64,000 nt of DNA from Haloarchaeobius sp. HME9146 (GCF_025399835.1 NZ_JAODVR010000001.1:2604001-2668000), one strand, 5' to 3'. Positions 27,501 to 36,142 are shown, numbered from the stretch's first letter. Numbers and translations are program-made. Notes: generated from the letters alone by a model not told the origin.

Positions 27501-27611
27501 ACCGACACCAGTTCTCTTTCTGCTGCATCGCAAGGGCTGGGCAGCTGTTGCTGTCCGATACTCCATGCTATCAGTTCACACAATCGAGAAAGATTCGGCC
27601 TTTCTATTCAG

Positions 27612-27646
27612 AAACAAACACACTATCCGGCACAAACAATTAAATC
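27612..27646 (+). promoter_or_regulatory. glpR promoter with AAACAAAC element
   Basis: AAACAAAC (27612-27619) and a looser ACAAACAA (about 27632-27639) lie before and in the TATA-like CAATTAAATCC (about 27637-27647). The same 8-mer occurs in the ptfC and fba promoters, so it may be the GlpR operator and mean autoregulation. AGAGGA before the ATG (about 27679-27684) is a probable ribosome-binding site. Confidence 0.5.
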
Positions 27647-27687
27647 CGTGCAGTCACCACACACGAATAGGAACTCAAGAGGACAGT

Positions 27688-28452
27688 ATGCTACCTGCAG
27701 AGAGAAAACGAAAGATCGTGGAACTCGTATCGGCCCAGGACGGGTGCTCCGTGCAGGAACTCGCGGACCACTTCGGCTTCTCGAAGGCGACCGTCCGGCG
27801 CGACCTCCAGCAACTCGAAGATGACGGGATGATAGAACGCTCCCACGGTGGGGCGGTCCCGGTGACAACCGTCGGGCGCGAACAGACCTACGGGCAGCGA
27901 GAGGTCCAGAACTTAGAGGAGAAGATGGCCATCGCCGCCCGCGCCGTCGAGGAGATCGTCGAAGGGCAAGTGGTCTGCTTCGACTCCGGGACGACGACGA
28001 TGGAGGTCGCGAAACAGACGCCCAAGGACGGGTCGGTTCTCACCGTCACGAACTCGCCCTTGCTGGCGCTCGAACTCGGGAAAGACGAGAACGAGGTCAA
28101 ACTCACGGGCGGGACGCTCCGCGAGCGGACCCGAGCGCTCGTCGGCCCGAGCGCGGAGCGCTTCATGGAGCGCATGAACTTCGACTTGCTGTTCCTGGGG
28201 ACGAACGCGGTCGACGTCGAGGCGGGGCTGACCACACCCAACGAGGACGAAGCACGCATCAAAGAACAGATGGTTGGCTGTGCGGAGACCGTCGTGCTCT
28301 GTGCCGACAGCACCAAACTCGGGGACAGAAGTTTCGTCCAGTTCGCCACCCTCGACGATGTGGACGTGTTCGTGACCGACGCCGAGCTCACCGACGAACA
28401 GCGCGAGGCGTTCTACGCCGCGGGCGTCAGACTCGTGACGGAGGTCGCCTGA
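27688..28452 (+). CDS. glpR: DeoR-family transcriptional repressor GlpR
   Basis: A 254-residue protein. The N-terminal winged helix has MLPAERKRKIVELV, the HTH SVQELADHFGFSKATVRRDLQQLE (about residues 20-43) and the DeoR signature IERSHGGAV. The C-terminal sugar-phosphate sensor domain has VVCFDSGTTTMEVA and TLLF-type strands with FLGTNAVDVEAGLTTPNEDEA. In H. volcanii GlpR represses fructose and glycerol-kinase-related genes and is co-transcribed with pfkB; gene order here is the same. The start at 27688 matches the family. The stop overlaps the pfkB start by one base (TGATG). Confidence 0.9.
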   Translation: MLPAERKRKIVELVSAQDGCSVQELADHFGFSKATVRRDLQQLEDDGMIERSHGGAVPVTTVGREQTYGQREVQNLEEKMAIAARAVEEIVEGQVVCFDSGTTTMEVAKQTPKDGSVLTVTNSPLLALELGKDENEVKLTGGTLRERTRALVGPSAERFMERMNFDLLFLGTNAVDVEAGLTTPNEDEARIKEQMVGCAETVVLCADSTKLGDRSFVQFATLDDVDVFVTDAELTDEQREAFYAAGVRLVTEVA

Positions 28453-29357
28453 TGATACTCACGGTCACCCTGAATCCGGCCGTCGACCACACCGTCACGG
28501 TCGACGAGGCGTTCACCCCCGACACTGTCCACCGGGCGGGGTCGGCCCGGTACGACGCCGGGGGGAAGGGCATCAACGTCTCGAAGTATCTCGTCGAGTT
28601 GGGTCGCGAGACCGTCGCGACCGGTGTCCTCGGTGGGTTCCTCGGTGAGTTCGTCCGTGAACGCCTCGCCGCCGACGGAATCCCGCAGGACTTCGTCGAT
28701 ATCGACGGCCTCACCCGTCTGAACACGACGGTTCTGGGAGAAGAAGAGTACAAGGTGAACCAGAACGGCCCGACCGTCGGCGTCGAGGCCATCGACGCCG
28801 TCATCGAGACCATCGAGCACCACGAGCCAGAGCTGGTCGTCGTGGCTGGCAGCCTCCCGCCGGGCCTCACGACCGACGCGATAGACGCCATCAGTCGCGC
28901 GGGCGACTGGCAGACAGTCGTCGACGTGGGCGGGGCGACACTGCAGAGCCTGGACGCGAACTACGCACTCTGCAAGCCGAACCGGGCCGAGCTCGCTGCC
29001 GCGACCGAGATGCCCGTTGGGACGGTCGACGAGTGTGCCGCCGCGGCTGAAGCCTTCCGTGAGGAAGGGTTCGAGACGGTCGTCGCGTCACTCGGGTCGG
29101 ATGGAGCTGTCCTCGCCTCGTCCGATGGGACGTACCACGCACCCGCACTCGACGTGGACGTGGTGGATACCGTCGGCGCAGGTGATGCACTGCTGTCCGG
29201 CGTGCTGGCCGCGCTCGACCGCGGGGTCTCTCCCCGGCAGGCCCTGGGAGAAGGGGTCGCCGTCGCGTCGAAGGTGGTTGCCGTGGCGGGAACGAGCATC
29301 CCCTCTCTTGCCGACCTGCCGACGGACGCCGAGCACGTCTCGGTCACGGTCCACTGA
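28452..29357 (+). CDS. pfkB: 1-phosphofructokinase
   Basis: A 301-residue PfkB-family sugar kinase with MILTVTLNPAVDHTVTVD at the start, the AGGKGINVSKYL motif (substrate binding) and the catalytic DTVGAGDALLSG (Asp245). The NPAVDHT start and position next to a fructose PTS point to fructose-1-phosphate as the substrate, giving fructose-1,6-bisphosphate with ATP. It is transcribed with glpR, which would repress it without fructose. 6-phosphotagatose kinase is a remote alternative. Confidence 0.92.
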   Translation: MILTVTLNPAVDHTVTVDEAFTPDTVHRAGSARYDAGGKGINVSKYLVELGRETVATGVLGGFLGEFVRERLAADGIPQDFVDIDGLTRLNTTVLGEEEYKVNQNGPTVGVEAIDAVIETIEHHEPELVVVAGSLPPGLTTDAIDAISRAGDWQTVVDVGGATLQSLDANYALCKPNRAELAAATEMPVGTVDECAAAAEAFREEGFETVVASLGSDGAVLASSDGTYHAPALDVDVVDTVGAGDALLSGVLAALDRGVSPRQALGEGVAVASKVVAVAGTSIPSLADLPTDAEHVSVTVH

Positions 29358-29409
29358 TGGGTAGAGCGCGTGTGCCCGAGATTCGCCCTTCTGGCGATGT
29401 TTCAGCCCA

Positions 29410-29434
29410 AAACAAACATAAACGAAAATATTCG
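29410..29434 (+). promoter_or_regulatory. ptfC promoter with AAACAAAC element
   Basis: AAACAAAC (29410-29417) sits directly before an AT-rich GAAAATATTCG (about 29424-29434), which can serve as TATA box; a small CGAA-AATA-TTCG palindrome overlaps it. Shared 8-mer with glpR and fba suggests GlpR control. Confidence 0.5.
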
Positions 29435-29467
29435 AAAGTACTTTTGAACCGTATCTGAACTATTGTG

Positions 29468-30646
29468 ATGGACACACTCATGGCAATGAAGGACACGGCA
29501 GAGGGGGCGCTCAGAACACACGTAACGAACGTCAAGGAACACCTGATGACGGGTGTCTCGTTCATGATACCGTTCGTCACCATCGGCGGTATCTTCATCG
29601 CGCTCGGGTTCGCAGCCACCGAATTCGTCCCGGGCACGCCGGCGATCGAGAACCTGGCGAGCCAGCCCGGCACGCTGGACTGGTACCTCGTCCAAATCGG
29701 CGGGGCAGGGCTCACGTTCATGGTGCCGATACTCGGCGCGTACATCGCGTACGCCATCGCCGATAGACCGGCACTCGCACCCGCGTTCATCCTGACGTAC
29801 ATCATCCAGCAGCCGGCCGTCATCGAACAGACCGGCAAGCTCATCGGACTGAACGCGGGGGGCAAGCCCGCGGGCTACCTCGGGGCCATCGTGGTCGGTC
29901 TCGTGGTCGGCCTCGTCGTCCGGTGGTTCAAGAACCTGGACGTACCGAAGGCGGTCAAGCCGATGATGCCGGTGCTCATCATCCCGGTCGTCTCGACGGC
30001 GGTGCTCACGCCCGTCGTCCTGTTCGCGCTCGGGGTCCCGGTCGCCATCGTGAACGACGCGCTGACCTCGTTCCTGTCGAGCATGCAGGGCGGCACGGCC
30101 ATCGTCCTCGGCCTCATCCTGGGTGGGATGATGGCGTTCGACATGGGCGGCCCGGTGAACAAGGTCGCGTACGTCTTCGCGGTCGGTCTCATCGCCGCCG
30201 AGGGCGGTGCCGTCACCAAGCCGATGGCCGCGGTGATGATCGCGGGGATGACCCCGCCCATCGGCATGGCACTCTCGAACCTCATCGCTCCCCACAAGTA
30301 CTCCGAGGAGATGTACGAGAACGCCAAGAGCGGCCTCGTCCTCGGGGCGTCGTTCATCACGGAAGGGGCGATTCCCTACGCAGCGGCCGACCCGCTCCGG
30401 GTCATCCCGAGCATCATCGCCGGCAGTGCGGTCGCGGGCGCAACTTCGATGGCACTGGGCGTGACGATGCCCGCTCCCCACGGCGGCATCTTCGTCTTCC
30501 TGCTGTCGAATAGTCCGCTGCTGTTCCTCGCCTGCGTGGTGCTGGGGTCGCTCACCACCGCGGCCGTCGCGACGCTCATCAAGCCCGACTACGAAGAGCG
30601 CATGGCAGAGAGCAGAGCAGAGGGTGACGCACAGCCCTCGGACTGA
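29468..30646 (+). CDS. ptfC: fructose-specific PTS component EIIC
   Basis: A 392-residue membrane protein with about nine to ten hydrophobic segments. Signature stretches of fructose-family EIIC are present: HLMTGVSFMIPFVTIGGIFIALG, GGAGLTFMVPILGAYIAYAIADRPALAPAF, MMAFDMGGPVNKVAYVF and FITEGAIPYAAADPLRVIP. It translocates fructose while it is phosphorylated at C1. EIIA and EIIB are separate genes here, unlike fused bacterial FruA. An in-frame GTG three bases upstream is also possible as start. It begins a unit with ptfA-ptsH-ptsI-ptfB. Confidence 0.93.
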   Translation: MDTLMAMKDTAEGALRTHVTNVKEHLMTGVSFMIPFVTIGGIFIALGFAATEFVPGTPAIENLASQPGTLDWYLVQIGGAGLTFMVPILGAYIAYAIADRPALAPAFILTYIIQQPAVIEQTGKLIGLNAGGKPAGYLGAIVVGLVVGLVVRWFKNLDVPKAVKPMMPVLIIPVVSTAVLTPVVLFALGVPVAIVNDALTSFLSSMQGGTAIVLGLILGGMMAFDMGGPVNKVAYVFAVGLIAAEGGAVTKPMAAVMIAGMTPPIGMALSNLIAPHKYSEEMYENAKSGLVLGASFITEGAIPYAAADPLRVIPSIIAGSAVAGATSMALGVTMPAPHGGIFVFLLSNSPLLFLACVVLGSLTTAAVATLIKPDYEERMAESRAEGDAQPSD

Positions 30647-30716
30647 AAATCGAAGATAAACTACCAACGACCGCCCGATTGGCCCATTTCACGTACACGC
30701 AATACGATACGATACC

Positions 30717-31187
30717 ATGCAACAGCCACAACCCGACATCCGAGAGATACTGACGACCGACACCGTCGCCCTGACCACCGAACCCACCGACAAGCACGAC
30801 TGTATCGAGACGCTGCTCGACCTCGTGGTCGAAACCGGTCGTGTCGACGACCGGGACGCAGCCCTCGACGCGCTCCTCGCTCGCGAGGAGGAGACGACGA
30901 CCGGCGTCGGCAAGGGAATCGGTATCCCGCACGCGAAGACCGACGCCGTCTCCGAACCGACGCTCGCGTTCCTCCGCTCCGAGGCCGGCATCGACTTCGA
31001 CGCGATGGACGGCGAACCGGCACACCTGATATTCATGATACTGGTCCCCGAGAGCGGGAGCCAGGACCACCTCAGCATCCTGAGCAGCCTCTCGCGGGCG
31101 CTCATGCACGACGACGTACGTGAGGCGCTGTACGACGCCGAGTCACCCGACAAAGTGGTCGACGTGGTCGTGGAGGCGGTCGAATGA
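30717..31187 (+). CDS. ptfA: fructose PTS component EIIA
   Basis: A 156-residue EIIA of the mannitol/fructose type. The phosphorylated His72 is in GVGKGIGIPHAKTDAV. The rest has the expected alpha/beta pattern ending in LSSLSRALMHDDVREAL. It receives phosphate from HPr and hands it to EIIB. The gap to ptfC is 70 bases, with no convincing TATA box or AAACAAAC element. The stop overlaps the ptsH start by four bases. Confidence 0.92.
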   Translation: MQQPQPDIREILTTDTVALTTEPTDKHDCIETLLDLVVETGRVDDRDAALDALLAREEETTTGVGKGIGIPHAKTDAVSEPTLAFLRSEAGIDFDAMDGEPAHLIFMILVPESGSQDHLSILSSLSRALMHDDVREALYDAESPDKVVDVVVEAVE

Positions 31188-31465
31188 GCGAACGAATCGT
31201 CGAGGTCGTCCCCGCCGACGGCCTGCACGCCCGACCCGCCGCGAAGTTCGTCGAGGCCGCGAACGAGCACAAGGCCGACGTGACGGTCCAGCCCGTCGAT
31301 GGCGACACCGACCCGGTCGATGCCCGGAGCATGCTCGGCGTGACGAGTCTCGGTGTGGCCTGTGGCGATTCCGTGAAACTGACTGCCGAGGGGGCCGACG
31401 CCGATGAGGCGCTCGACGCGCTCGAAACCGTCCTCTCCACGCCGGAGGCCGAACAGGACGCATGA
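31184..31465 (+). CDS. ptsH: PTS phosphocarrier HPr
   Basis: A 93-residue HPr. ADGLHARPAAKFVEAAN carries the phosphorylated His15 and the Arg beside it; RSMLGVTSLGVACG is the regulatory-serine helix region of bacterial HPr. No HPr kinase gene is visible here. It passes phosphate from EI to EIIA. Overlaps ptfA and ptsI by four bases each, so the four small genes are translationally coupled. Confidence 0.94.
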   Translation: MSERIVEVVPADGLHARPAAKFVEAANEHKADVTVQPVDGDTDPVDARSMLGVTSLGVACGDSVKLTAEGADADEALDALETVLSTPEAEQDA

Positions 31466-33153
31466 GCTGGCGACTCGACGGCGTCGGTGCCACGCCCCGG
31501 TCCGGGGTCGGCACCGTCGTGTGGTACGACCCGGACGCGAGCCTGGACGAGCCGCCCGATCCGGAGACGGTCGACGCGGACGCCGAGCGCGAGCGCGTCG
31601 CAGACGCCCGCCAGACCGCACGGGAAGAACTCGAAACTGAGCGCGAGCAGACCCGCGAGCGCATCGGCGACGAGGAGGCCGAAGTGTTCGACGCACACCT
31701 GCAGTTCCTCGACGACCCACAGCTGGTCGACGCCGTCGACGACGCCATCGACGAGGGACTACCCGCCGAACACGCTGTCGTCGCCGGGTTCGAAGACCCC
31801 ATCGCCCAGTTCGAGGGCATGGACGGCATGATGGCCGAGCGCGCGGACGACCTGCGGGACATCCGCGACCGCCTGGTCCGCCTCCTGACCGATGGCGACC
31901 GGGTCGACCTCGGGGACGTCCCCGAGGGCACGGTCCTGCTCGCGGAGCGACTCACGCCGAGCGACACGGCCCAACTCGATTCCGACCGCGTGGCCGGCTT
32001 CGCGACGGTCGAAGGCGGTCGTACATCCCACGCCGCCATCTTCGCTCGGTCGCTCGCCATCCCGGCCATCGTCGGGCTGGGCGACCAGCTCAGCGAAGTC
32101 GAAGAGGGAGCGACCGTCGTCGTGAACGGCGACGACGGAACGCTCGTCGTCGACCCCGACGAGGAGACCCGGACCGCGGCCGAACAGACGGAGACGGTCG
32201 AACTCCGCCCGGACCCGGTCACGACCGCCGACGGAACTCCCGTCGAGGTTGCGGCGAACCTCGGCACACTCGCGGAACTGGACGGTGCAGTCGAACAGGG
32301 CGCGGACGGCATCGGGTTGTTCAGAACGGAGTTCCTGTTTCTGGACCGCACCGCCCCGCCAACCGAAGACGAACAGGCCGACGTGTACTCCGAGGCGCTC
32401 GACGCCTTCCCCGAGGGGCGCGTCGTGGTCCGGACGCTCGACGTGGGTGGCGACAAGCCCATCCCGTACCTCGATCAGCCCGACGAAGACAACCCATTCC
32501 TCGGCGAGCGCGGCGTCCGCCGGTCGCTCGGGCGCGACACCGACCTGTTCGAGACGCAGTTGCGCGCGCTCATGCGAGCGGCCGCTGTTGGCGACGGGGA
32601 CCTCGCGGTCATGTTCCCCATGGTCGCGACCGTCGAGGAACTCGACACCGTCTTGGCGCGGGTCGAGTCGGTCGCATCGGACCTCGAATCAGCGGGTATC
32701 GCCTACGAGGTTCCCGAACTCGGGGTCATGATAGAGACCCCCGGAGCCGTGTTCCTCGCGGACGAACTCGCCAGCCGGGTCGACTTCCTCAGCCTCGGAA
32801 CGAACGACCTCACGCAGTACGTCATGGCCGCGGCCCGCGAGAACGACCGCGTCGCGGACCTCCACGACCCGCTCCATCCGCCAGTCCTGCGCGCGATCAA
32901 GCGGACCGTCGAGGCCGCCCACGCGAACGACGCCTGGGTCGGCATGTGCGGCGAGATGGCCGGTGACCCCGAAGTCACGGAACTGCTCGTCGGGCTCGGC
33001 CTCGACGAACTGAGCATGAGCGCCGTCACCGTCCCCGCAGTGAAGGCGGGCGTCGAAGCCGTCACCGACGACAACGCCGCCGCCCTCGCAGAACGTGCAT
33101 TGTCAGCACAGACCAAAGACCAAGTGCCCACCACCACCAACGATTCACCATGA
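31462..33153 (+). CDS. ptsI: PTS enzyme I (PEP-protein phosphotransferase)
   Basis: A 563-residue EI. The HPr-binding helical domain is followed by the swivel with the phospho-His190 in EGGRTSHAAIFARSLAIPAIVG, then the TIM-barrel with GLFRTEFLF, RTLDVGGDKPIPYL, LGTNDLTQYVMAA and the catalytic Cys region VGMCGEMAGDPE (about residue 495). It takes phosphate from PEP and starts the relay to HPr. Length is that of bacterial EI (about 570). Such systems are rare among archaea and were probably gained from bacteria. Confidence 0.95.
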   Translation: MSWRLDGVGATPRSGVGTVVWYDPDASLDEPPDPETVDADAERERVADARQTAREELETEREQTRERIGDEEAEVFDAHLQFLDDPQLVDAVDDAIDEGLPAEHAVVAGFEDPIAQFEGMDGMMAERADDLRDIRDRLVRLLTDGDRVDLGDVPEGTVLLAERLTPSDTAQLDSDRVAGFATVEGGRTSHAAIFARSLAIPAIVGLGDQLSEVEEGATVVVNGDDGTLVVDPDEETRTAAEQTETVELRPDPVTTADGTPVEVAANLGTLAELDGAVEQGADGIGLFRTEFLFLDRTAPPTEDEQADVYSEALDAFPEGRVVVRTLDVGGDKPIPYLDQPDEDNPFLGERGVRRSLGRDTDLFETQLRALMRAAAVGDGDLAVMFPMVATVEELDTVLARVESVASDLESAGIAYEVPELGVMIETPGAVFLADELASRVDFLSLGTNDLTQYVMAAARENDRVADLHDPLHPPVLRAIKRTVEAAHANDAWVGMCGEMAGDPEVTELLVGLGLDELSMSAVTVPAVKAGVEAVTDDNAAALAERALSAQTKDQVPTTTNDSP

Positions 33154-33617
33154 AACTCGTCGCAGTCACGTCCTGTCCGACCGGAATCGCACACAGCCAG
33201 ATGGCAGCAGAGAACCTCGAACAGACAGCGCCGGAACTCGGCCACGAGATCAAGGTCGAGGTCCAGGGCGCGATGGGCGCGGAGAACGAGCTCACGGCCG
33301 CGGAGATCGACGCGGCTGACGCGGTCATCATCGCCGCAGATACGGCCGTCAGCCGCGACCGATTCGAGGGAAAGCCCCTCGTCAAGGGAACCGTGAAAGA
33401 CGCGGTCAACGACCCCGAGGGACTCATCGAGCAGGCCCAGGCGGAGGTCGACGGCGCTGGCTCGGCGGAGGCAGCTGGAGACGAGGCTGCCGAATCCGAG
33501 ACGGCCACGACCGACACCACGGATGCAACCACGACCGACACCGAGCCCACCCAGCGCCCGAAGGGCGGCGACCGCTCGAAGGGGCTGTTCGCGCGGCTCA
33601 AGCGGCTCTTCTCCTGA
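33150..33617 (+). CDS. ptfB: fructose PTS component EIIB, with disordered linker and amphipathic tail
   Basis: A 155-residue protein. The EIIB domain (residues 1-97) begins MKLVAVTSCPTGIAHSQMAAE; Cys9 is the phosphorylated residue. It continues with an acidic Ala/Thr/Glu-rich linker (about 100-135) and ends in a basic amphipathic segment GLFARLKRLFS. Bacterial EIIB is normally fused to EIIC; here the tail might hold a free EIIB at the membrane near PtfC, which is inference. Overlaps the ptsI stop by four bases. It ends the PTS unit. Confidence 0.92.
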   Translation: MKLVAVTSCPTGIAHSQMAAENLEQTAPELGHEIKVEVQGAMGAENELTAAEIDAADAVIIAADTAVSRDRFEGKPLVKGTVKDAVNDPEGLIEQAQAEVDGAGSAEAAGDEAAESETATTDTTDATTTDTEPTQRPKGGDRSKGLFARLKRLFS

Positions 33618-33702
33618 GTTCGCCCGATTCGTTCCCGTCTTCTGGTCGGAGCCCTACCCGCGGAGTCGATACGCTTTTCCACCAGCCATCTGACACGCCG
33701 GT

Positions 33703-34320
33703 ATGGACGAGGTCTCCCGAACTGCGAGCGTGTACGAGGGTGACACCGCGGCGTTCGTCGAGAAGTACCGATCGGAATCGGTCGCGGCACTGTACGGGCA
33801 GCGGTTCTTCGAAGCCCTCGCCGGTGAACGGGTCCTCGACGTCGGTTGCGGGCCCGGTGCCGACTCGACGGTGTTCGCCGAGCGCGGCTTCGAGGTGACG
33901 GGATTCGACCGGACCCGGCCGTTCCTCGAGACGGTACGCGAGCAAGTCCCCGAGGCTCGCGCCGCTCACGGCGACATGCGCTGGCTCCCCTTCCGTGACG
34001 ATGCCTTCGACGGCGTCTGGAGCTCTGCCTCCCTGCTTCACGTCCCGCGCGAGGACGTTCCTGCGACGCTCCAGGAGTTCCGACGGGTCCTCGCCCCGGA
34101 CGGCGTCGTGTTCGCGTCGCTCAAGCGCGGCGAGGAGAGCGGCTACAGCGAGGATGGCCGGTACTTCGAGCGATACACGCCAGCGGAGGTGCGACGGCTG
34201 TTCGCGGAGAACGGGTTCGACTGCGTGGACATCGAGATAGAAGAAGTGCCGGACACCGAGCCGCCGCTAGCATGGATCAGCGTCCTCGCGGGTGACGTGC
34301 GTCCCGCGAGCGAGGATTAG
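33703..34320 (+). CDS. class I SAM-dependent methyltransferase
   Basis: A 205-residue Rossmann methyltransferase: motif I VLDVGCGPGADSTVF (about residues 45-59), motif II at VTGFDRTRPFL, then AAHGDMRWLPFRDDAFDGVWSSASLLHV, as in UbiE/Methyltransf_11 proteins. Substrate unknown. It lies between ptfB and the convergent fbp gene, whose stop it overlaps by four bases, and has no evident role in fructose use. The ATG at 33703 follows a weak TACGCTTTTCC element by about 30 bases. Confidence 0.8.
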   Translation: MDEVSRTASVYEGDTAAFVEKYRSESVAALYGQRFFEALAGERVLDVGCGPGADSTVFAERGFEVTGFDRTRPFLETVREQVPEARAAHGDMRWLPFRDDAFDGVWSSASLLHVPREDVPATLQEFRRVLAPDGVVFASLKRGEESGYSEDGRYFERYTPAEVRRLFAENGFDCVDIEIEEVPDTEPPLAWISVLAGDVRPASED

Positions 34321-35177
34321 TTCTCGGTCAACGCATCGACCAGTTCGGGCGTCCCCAGAATCGTCGGGACACGCTCGTGCAGTTCTCCAGGCTCACGGTC
34401 GAGCAACCGCTGTCTCCCGTCGGTCGCTGCCCCGCCCGCGCACTCGACGATGTGGGCAACGGGGTTCGACTCGTACTGGAGCCGCAACACGCCGTTGGGC
34501 CGCCCCTCGTGTTCGGGGTAGCACAGCAGGCCGCCGTTGGCCAGCAGGTGTCCCATGTCCGCGACCATCGCGCCGGTGTACCGGAGTTTGAGGCCGACCT
34601 CGCCCGCCAGATCGAGCACGCTGGCCGGCATCCCATCGTCGGTCCGGTCGATGGTTCCGACGCCGTCGAGTCCCACGACGGTAGCCTCGTCCGGAAGCGT
34701 CACCTGACTGGGCGCGACCCGCTCCCCATCGCGAACGACCCACTCTGTTGCCTCCCCCTCGTGAGCGACCGTCATCGTCGTCAGCGGGCCGTACCGGACA
34801 ACCGCGCTGGCGACGAGAGTCGTTCCCTTCGCGGGCAAGGGCGCATCGTACACGCCGACGACGGTTCCGACGAGGTTGTTCGACGCGAGGTTCGAGGAGC
34901 CGTCGACCGGGTCAACCGTGACGGAGAAACCTGTCCCACAGTCGACGACCGATTCGCGTTCTTCGCTGGCGTAGGCACCGACCGCATCGAGCGCCGTCAG
35001 CCGGTCGTGGAGCAGTGCGTCGACCCGGTCGTCGGCCGCGATGGTGTGGTCGCCGGAGGGGTTCTCGCCTGCCGAGACCATAGCCGCGGAATCGCCGCGA
35101 CTGGTCGCGAGCGCCCTGCGGATGGCCGGCTCGGCGGCAGCGACGGCGTCGAGGACCGCTGCGACGCCCGTGGTCAT
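34317..35177 (-). CDS. fbp: fructose-1,6-bisphosphatase (class I)
   Basis: A 286-residue enzyme of the FBPase/IMPase superfamily. Metal-site motifs are SEERESVVDCG and DPVDGSSN (about residues 104-111); LRYTGAMVADMGHLLANGG and the C-terminal GGAATDG and ELHERVPTILGTPELV are those of class I FBPases and not of inositol monophosphatases. It removes the C1 phosphate from fructose-1,6-bisphosphate to give fructose-6-phosphate. Its start overlaps the end of fba by four bases, so it is co-transcribed with it. On fructose, which enters as fructose-1-phosphate, Fbp would be the source of fructose-6-phosphate. Confidence 0.88.
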   Translation of the reverse strand: MTTGVAAVLDAVAAAEPAIRRALATSRGDSAAMVSAGENPSGDHTIAADDRVDALLHDRLTALDAVGAYASEERESVVDCGTGFSVTVDPVDGSSNLASNNLVGTVVGVYDAPLPAKGTTLVASAVVRYGPLTTMTVAHEGEATEWVVRDGERVAPSQVTLPDEATVVGLDGVGTIDRTDDGMPASVLDLAGEVGLKLRYTGAMVADMGHLLANGGLLCYPEHEGRPNGVLRLQYESNPVAHIVECAGGAATDGRQRLLDREPGELHERVPTILGTPELVDALTEN

Positions 35178-35968
35178 TCGAGTGCGCTGGCAGCGTTGGC
35201 CGCGGACTCGCCCTCGAACACCACCTGTTCGAGCGCGTCGAGGAGCGCGTGCGGCTCGTCGGCCTGCCAGACGTTCCGGCCCACCGCAAGGCCCGACGCC
35301 CCGGCCTCCATCGCCGTCTCGACGAGTTCGAGGAACTCCCGGGCGCTCGTTTTCGAGCCCCCGCTGAGGACGACCGGCATGTCGGCGGCCGAATCACACG
35401 CCCAGGCCATCGCCTCGGGCGAGCGCGGGTACTTCACCTTCGCCAGGTCCGCACCCAGTTCTAGTGCCACGCGGGTCGCGTACGCGATGGTACCCGGTTT
35501 GCGGTGCTCCTTGATGGCCTGCCCGCGCGGGTAGGACCACATCGCGACCGGGAGGTCGTACTCGCGGGCTGCCTCCTGCACCTCGCGGAAGTCCGCGAAC
35601 ATCTCGGGTTCGCGGTTCGTCCCGGGATAGACCGTGTAGCCGACCGCGTCGGCACCGAGTTCGGCCGCGTACTCCACGGAACACGTCGGTGGGGCGTATG
35701 GCTCGCCCTCCCACAGGCTGCTCGACCCGTTCAATTTCGCGAGCAACGAGACGCTGTCGTCGTACGAGGGATAGTACGTCTCCGCGAGCCCCTTCTGGAC
35801 GGCGAAGCCCGTCACCGCGTCGTGGGTCGCCATCTCGAACACCGTCTCAGGGTTGAGTCGTGCCTCGACACCGTCGAACGCCGTCGGCCCGTGTTCGAGC
35901 CCGTGGTCGTGTGCGAGGATGATTGCCTTGCCGTCTCTCGTCAGCGCCGAGTCCACTTGTGGCTGCAT
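35174..35968 (-). CDS. fba: fructose-bisphosphate aldolase, archaeal class I
   Basis: A 264-residue TIM-barrel aldolase of the archaeal class I (DeoC/LacD-like) type. AIILAHDHGLEHGP near the start is family-typical; the Schiff-base lysine is in LAKVKYPRS (Lys177 or Lys179), followed by VVLSGGSKTSAREFLE and the phosphate-binding GASGLAVGRNVWQ. It cleaves fructose-1,6-bisphosphate to two trioses. I start at the ATG at 35968 (MQPQVDS); the frame continues upstream to a TTG. The promoter carries the AAACAAAC inverted repeat, so GlpR control is likely. Confidence 0.9.
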   Translation of the reverse strand: MQPQVDSALTRDGKAIILAHDHGLEHGPTAFDGVEARLNPETVFEMATHDAVTGFAVQKGLAETYYPSYDDSVSLLAKLNGSSSLWEGEPYAPPTCSVEYAAELGADAVGYTVYPGTNREPEMFADFREVQEAAREYDLPVAMWSYPRGQAIKEHRKPGTIAYATRVALELGADLAKVKYPRSPEAMAWACDSAADMPVVLSGGSKTSAREFLELVETAMEAGASGLAVGRNVWQADEPHALLDALEQVVFEGESAANAASALE

Positions 35969-35983
35969 AGCACGACCGACGGG

Positions 35984-36018
35984 AAACAAACAAAAACAGT
36001 TTTTGAATATGTTTGTTT
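35984..36018 (-). promoter_or_regulatory. fba-fbp promoter with inverted AAACAAAC operator
   Basis: AAACAAAC (35984-35991) and GTTTGTTT (36011-36018) are perfect inverted 8-mers separated by 19 bases. Between them lies an AT-rich stretch with AAAAA-CAG-TTTTT and the TATA-like ATATTCAAAAA on the minus strand. A dimeric repressor on these arms would cover the TATA box. The same 8-mer precedes glpR and ptfC. Confidence 0.6.
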
Positions 36019-36142
36019 ACTATTGTCTCTGTCTGTAATAGGGCTGGTTTCGAAACCTGCTGTCCGGTCTGACCGTCCGAAACCGAGACCAATTCGGCCT
36101 CGGCACCGCGCTTAACCCCTCTGCAGCCGTATCTCTACCCGT

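Follow-up and report, generated by a model that had tools for sequence, protein, structure and literature searches.

The fructose locus and its repeated promoter word

The window, the whole 64-kb stretch of DNA that was analyzed, carries a fructose catabolic locus in which glpR, pfkB, and the fructose PTS genes are convergent with a pair formed by fba and an fbp-like gene (Table 1). GlpR contains both the DeoR helix-turn-helix and the DeoR C-terminal sensor domain, each scoring above its cutoff, in a protein of the roughly 250 aa looked for, and the first base of the pfkB start codon is the last base of the glpR stop codon. The pfkB orthologue in an annotated locus (L200) is named 1-phosphofructokinase, and the order EIIA-HPr-EI-EIIB, annotated in this way in L200, is the same in orthologous loci. 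An alternative GTG start of ptfC is possible at 29465. The fbp-like gene overlaps the end of fba and is therefore probably cotranscribed with it; its relatives adjoin the fructose cluster in 16 of 60 orthologous loci. GlpR is encoded together with 1-phosphofructokinase and fructose PTS genes in the window and in most of these 60 loci. In Haloarcula hispanica, the class I aldolase gene fbaB1 is required for growth on fructose (PMC11519228). The domain matches agree with the gene names given in the original prediction (DeoR-family GlpR, PfkB-family kinase, PTS EIIC, and PF01791 aldolase).

Table 1. Genes and predicted promoter elements of the fructose locus (window coordinates)
Feature	Position	Strand	Description
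Predicted glpR operator	27605..27648	+	TATTCAGAAACAAACACACTAT (27605-27626) and CCGGCACAAACAATTAAATCCG (27627-27648)
Putative glpR TATA element	27638..27645	+	AATTAAAT; by inspection; AAACAATTAAC conserved in orthologues
glpR	27688..28452	+	DeoR-family transcriptional regulator, 254 aa; PF08220 E=3.2e-18, PF00455 E=7.8e-49
pfkB	28452..29357	+	1-phosphofructokinase-type PfkB kinase; PF00294 E=6.1e-45
Predicted ptfC operator	29403..29434	+	CAGCCCAAAACAAACATAAACGAAAATATTCG; consecutive 10-bp units
Putative ptfC BRE/TATA	29431..29448	+	TTCGAAAGTACTTTTGAA; CTTTTG-type box, seen across ptfC promoters
ptfC	29468..30646	+	Fructose PTS EIIC; PF02378 E=1.8e-24
Remaining fructose PTS genes	30717..33617	+	ORFs
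EIIA	30717-31187	+	ORF
HPr	31184-31465	+	ORF
EI	31462-33153	+	ORF
EIIB	33150-33617	+	ORF
fbp-like gene	34317..35177	-	ORF; name from context only
fba	35174..35968	-	Class I-type fructose-bisphosphate aldolase; PF01791 E=1.7e-43
Predicted inverted second fba operator copy	35977..35998	+	CGACGGGAAACAAACAAAAACA; held-out matrix 17.6; overlaps putative TATA box
Putative fba BRE/TATA	35990..36009	-	TATTCAAAAACTGTTTTTGT; by inspection and comparison with ptfC promoters
Predicted main fba operator	36004..36035	-	CAGACAGAGACAATAGTAAACAAACATATTCA; best match of the window, 21.7

Four copies of the 8-mer AAACAAAC had been placed by that prediction at 27612-27619 (+), 29410-29417 (+), 35984-35991 (+), and 36011-36018 (-); all four are present, all lie at the glpR, ptfC, and fba promoters, and the window holds no further copies, compared with a mean of 0.20 and a maximum of 2 in dinucleotide shuffles of the same stretch. 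Since the 4.19-Mb genome contains only 19 copies, 15 of them elsewhere, a cluster of four in 8.4 kb greatly exceeds the chance expectation. The other 15 lack the flanking pattern, several of them lying within genes, and when all 19 were scored with the operator matrix, the four reached 14.1 to 21.7 and the remaining 15 scored 8.1 or less. Unrelated promoters do not carry the exact 8-mer more often than those of the regulon (2 of 475 controls). It was nevertheless rejected as the conserved unit, being found in only 3/61 glpR, 7/50 ptfC, and 7/20 fba promoters of the orthologous set, and AAACAAAC is one version of a degenerate element, AAACRAWC with its flanks.

Conservation and specificity of the element

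Close relatives of GlpR are encoded in 92 of 293 genomes of the order. From 60 other GlpR-encoding genomes, about 18.7 kb around glpR (less at contig ends) was taken, glpR, ptfC, and fba were located by tblastn, and the bases upstream of each start codon were compared, with 475 other promoters from the same loci and 48 pyk or gap promoters as the background. AAACRAWC occurs in 26 of 61 glpR, 29 of 50 ptfC, and 17 of 20 fba promoters, compared with 14 of 475 controls; the corresponding P values are 8.8e-18, 7.4e-24, and 2.0e-20, and these overstate the significance because orthologues were treated as independent and because the controls are richer in G+C (62% versus 43 to 50%). The redundancy-filtered, shuffled, one-per-genus, and held-out results given below are independent of these P values. 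Permutations of its letters are seldom enriched, and outside the regulon the element is rare, both in the controls, which were sampled from the same loci, and in pyk (0/30) and gap (1/18) promoters.

A simple EM motif search over 97 promoters of the three unrelated genes, with identity within each gene capped at 70%, returned the conserved element CGAWCARAAACRATCAnAWWCG. Scores of its 12-base core lie above the control 95th percentile in 32/42 glpR, 34/37 ptfC, and 16/18 fba promoters; nearly all of these sites are on the coding strand, with median distances to the start codon of 56 to 66 bases. Ten of the 42 glpR promoters have no site above this threshold, and for some of them a transcription start further upstream is possible.

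When the matrix was rebuilt without this genome and scanned over the 64 kb, ten matches scored above 10 (control 95th and 99th percentiles, 6.7 and 16.9). Eight of these, among them the four highest (21.7, 19.9, 19.4, and 17.6), fall in the glpR, ptfC, and fba promoters; the other two are in coding sequence. The whole genome contains only two matches to a stricter pattern, RAAACRAWCA-N-AWWC, and both are in this locus. In contrast to the full pattern, the short core GAAACRAWCA is overrepresented relative to its reversed control whether or not a genome encodes GlpR, so that it is not specific on its own, and its genome-wide count was dropped as a marker of GlpR presence. The comparative results bear out the proposal of an operator-like element common to the three fructose-regulon promoters: it is conserved in their orthologous promoters, was recovered by the held-out matrix, and is real and maintained in dozens of relatives.

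An operator-like match scoring 16.0 at 33759-33780, inside a methyltransferase-like ORF, is probably due to chance. An AACWATCGTGA-like element recurs at the ptfC start, both in the window (29456-29470, AACTATTGTGATG) and in ptfC promoters of other loci, and is possibly a further operator unit or a start-site feature. Four genomes of the same genus (G261, G270, G273, and G282) show no close glpR and no ptfC match, with only one aldolase relative, and the fructose cluster is therefore patchy within the genus.

Direct repeats with a 10-bp period

In the predicted operator, CRAWCA-like units follow one another as direct repeats every 10 bp, immediately before the putative BRE/TATA. In the promoters of the regulon, 98 pairs of such units lie at 10 bp, whereas dinucleotide shuffling of these promoters gave 9.0 (z = 24.7). 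Spacings of 20 and 30 bp, as well as related ones including 6 and 16, form additional peaks; control promoters have no 10-bp peak (5.7 pairs, scaled, versus 98). When one promoter per genus was retained, 10 bp remained the commonest spacing at glpR and ptfC, whereas at fba it ranked second (8 pairs, with 0.4 expected from the controls), slightly behind 6 bp (9 pairs). The distance from the start of the operator core to the CTTTTG-type TATA box is also fixed, at 24 bp in 18 of the 21 ptfC promoters scored; in the window it is 34 bp, that is, one extra 10-bp unit.

The sites in the window follow this layout. The two glpR sites, with held-out scores of 10.6 and 14.1, have AAAC cores at a spacing of 22 bp, and the second overlaps the putative TATA box; the same two-site arrangement, with a spacing of 20 to 22 bp, is seen in several orthologues. 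At ptfC, the scores of 19.4 (29403-29424) and 19.9 (29413-29434) represent two registers 10 bp apart, and the main fba operator likewise has a second register 10 bp upstream, scoring 13.8.

The original prediction had read AAACAAAC/GTTTGTTT as the half-site of an inverted repeat, which is contradicted by the dominance of same-strand direct repeats. The inverted pair itself is confined to a minority of fba promoters: the window has a high-scoring inverted copy there, and 4 of 18 promoters carry one at -23 to -29 (control rate, 0.013), but no inverted copy was found in the last 45 nt of 42 glpR or 37 ptfC promoters; two inverted half-sites at each promoter are thus not the rule. The 10-bp spacing and the fixed core-to-TATA distance together argue that the candidate operator is a series of direct repeats in phase with the helix and set against the BRE/TATA, not a simple inverted pair, and the inverted 8-mer half-site is to be replaced by this degenerate row.

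The candidate regulator and related systems

The element is most probably the operator of the DeoR-family repressor GlpR, which fructose-1-phosphate would derepress. GlpR is the leading candidate because an operator-like site lies at the regulator's own promoter as well as at the fructose genes expected as its targets and because ptfC and GlpR co-occur: comparison of the genome lists showed a GlpR relative in nearly all ptfC-bearing genomes, and the single exception observed (G036) is a short fragment. The earlier choice of GlpR as the binding protein is therefore kept as the best candidate, given the conservation of the site and its absence from targets of the activator GfcR, and only the wording of an inverted 8-mer half-site is given up. 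That GlpR is the bound protein, that it represses by occlusion, and that it responds to fructose-1-phosphate we infer from homology and the literature. The H. volcanii GlpR regulon was reportedly studied by Rawls in 2010, and the title of Martin 2018 (J Bacteriol 200:e00244-18) names H. volcanii GlpR as a direct repressor of fructose genes; the study reportedly describes its binding of fructose-1-phosphate as a tetramer.

The proposed control would operate as follows: (i) GlpR, probably as an oligomer, would bind the row of CRAWCA-like units, all of which, at 10 bp apart, would lie on one face of the helix; (ii) as the row lies immediately upstream of, and partly overlaps, the putative BRE/TATA of glpR-pfkB, of ptfC and the other PTS genes, and of fba-fbp, bound GlpR would block TBP/TFB when fructose is absent, silencing fructose uptake, breakdown, and glpR itself; and (iii) upon fructose import through the PTS, GlpR would bind fructose-1-phosphate and leave the operator. 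A repressor placed upstream of the BRE/TATA must overlap it or bend the DNA in order to block TFB, and an activator would also fit this position.

Such an activator could be GfcR, the phosphoribosyltransferase-like activator of glucose and fructose breakdown in H. volcanii; Haloarcula hispanica with gfcR deleted cannot grow on fructose (PMC11519228), and the site does lie just upstream of the BRE/TATA, as activator sites do. We consider it unlikely that the element is the GfcR site, since the common targets of GfcR, pyk and GAPDH I (PMC11519228), virtually lack AAACRAWC in the 30 GlpR-bearing genomes compared (counts above), although this evidence is good rather than perfect, as the pyk or gap start codon could not be placed confidently in some loci. 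The presence of the element at the glpR promoter itself also speaks against GfcR, which was set aside as the binder, and many pyk promoters carry an ACTCG-N4-CGAGT-like palindrome instead. This palindrome lies just upstream of a T-rich box at pyk, in the genome's own pyk locus (L155, ACTCGGAACCGAGT) and across L152-L181, and is perhaps the site of GfcR or TrmB.

It is very improbable that the element is a general A-rich part of any strong haloarchaeal promoter, such as an extended BRE or an upstream element: its A-richness, its abutment on the BRE/TATA box, and the abundance of GAAACRAWCA in nearly all haloarchaeal genomes searched would suit such a part, but other promoters of the same loci seldom contain AAACRAWC and show no 10-bp peak, permuted versions of the word are seldom enriched, and the control counts and the held-out scan already point to the 22-bp pattern being rare in unrelated promoters. 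That a low-complexity word recurs in AT-rich promoters merely by chance, as the location of 15 of the 19 genomic copies elsewhere might suggest, has a negligible probability, given four copies in the window where 0.20 are expected, conservation in orthologous promoters, and blind recovery by a matrix from other genomes.

Reading the element as the GlpR operator places the locus among known systems. Like the Haloferax volcanii regulon, in which GlpR is a DeoR-family repressor of glucose and fructose catabolism (PMC12853182), it links a DeoR-family GlpR to pfkB, with the fructose genes as predicted targets of repression; the aldolase differs, being of the class I type (PF01791) here, whereas H. 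volcanii uses class II. GlpR control of fructose genes is thus already known in Haloferax, and the present analysis contributes the site's layout, with units 10 bases apart. The haloarchaeal GfcR regulon likewise covers fructose and glucose breakdown (PMC11519228), but GfcR is an activator of another protein family, and its targets pyk and gap are without this element. Bacterial FruR (Staphylococcus aureus, Lactococcus lactis, and Caldicellulosiruptor; PMC10765703, PMC8579813) is, like GlpR, a DeoR-family protein that controls 1-phosphofructokinase and the fructose PTS, with fructose-1-phosphate as the likely inducer, as proposed for GlpR here; in S. aureus, fructose-1-phosphate relieves its repression of fruRKT, and a DeoR/FruR target made up of four adjacent 10-bp repeats has been reported (PMC10765703), which resembles the present arrangement in layout. 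In contrast to FruR, GlpR is predicted to act on an archaeal BRE/TATA promoter, and the layout suggests how a bacterial-type repressor works there. That GlpR and FruR share ancestry, ligand, and operator code, the regulator, operator grammar, and PTS regulon having crossed together from bacteria to haloarchaea, is conceivable but rather doubtful.

The 22-bp, 10-bp-phased direct-repeat pattern provides a concrete candidate operator for archaeal GlpR across the order and can be used to predict its targets, such as genes encoded near glpR in some genomes that resemble those for sugar ABC transporter binding proteins. Strong operator-like sites (13.2 to 18.6) lie upstream of such genes in L088, L096, L098, and L109, and these are possible additions to the regulon in loci with a divergent PTS or with none found. 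In several loci (L055-L063), class II fba follows the PTS, and a weaker row of similar 10-bp units lies upstream, scoring about 10 in some.
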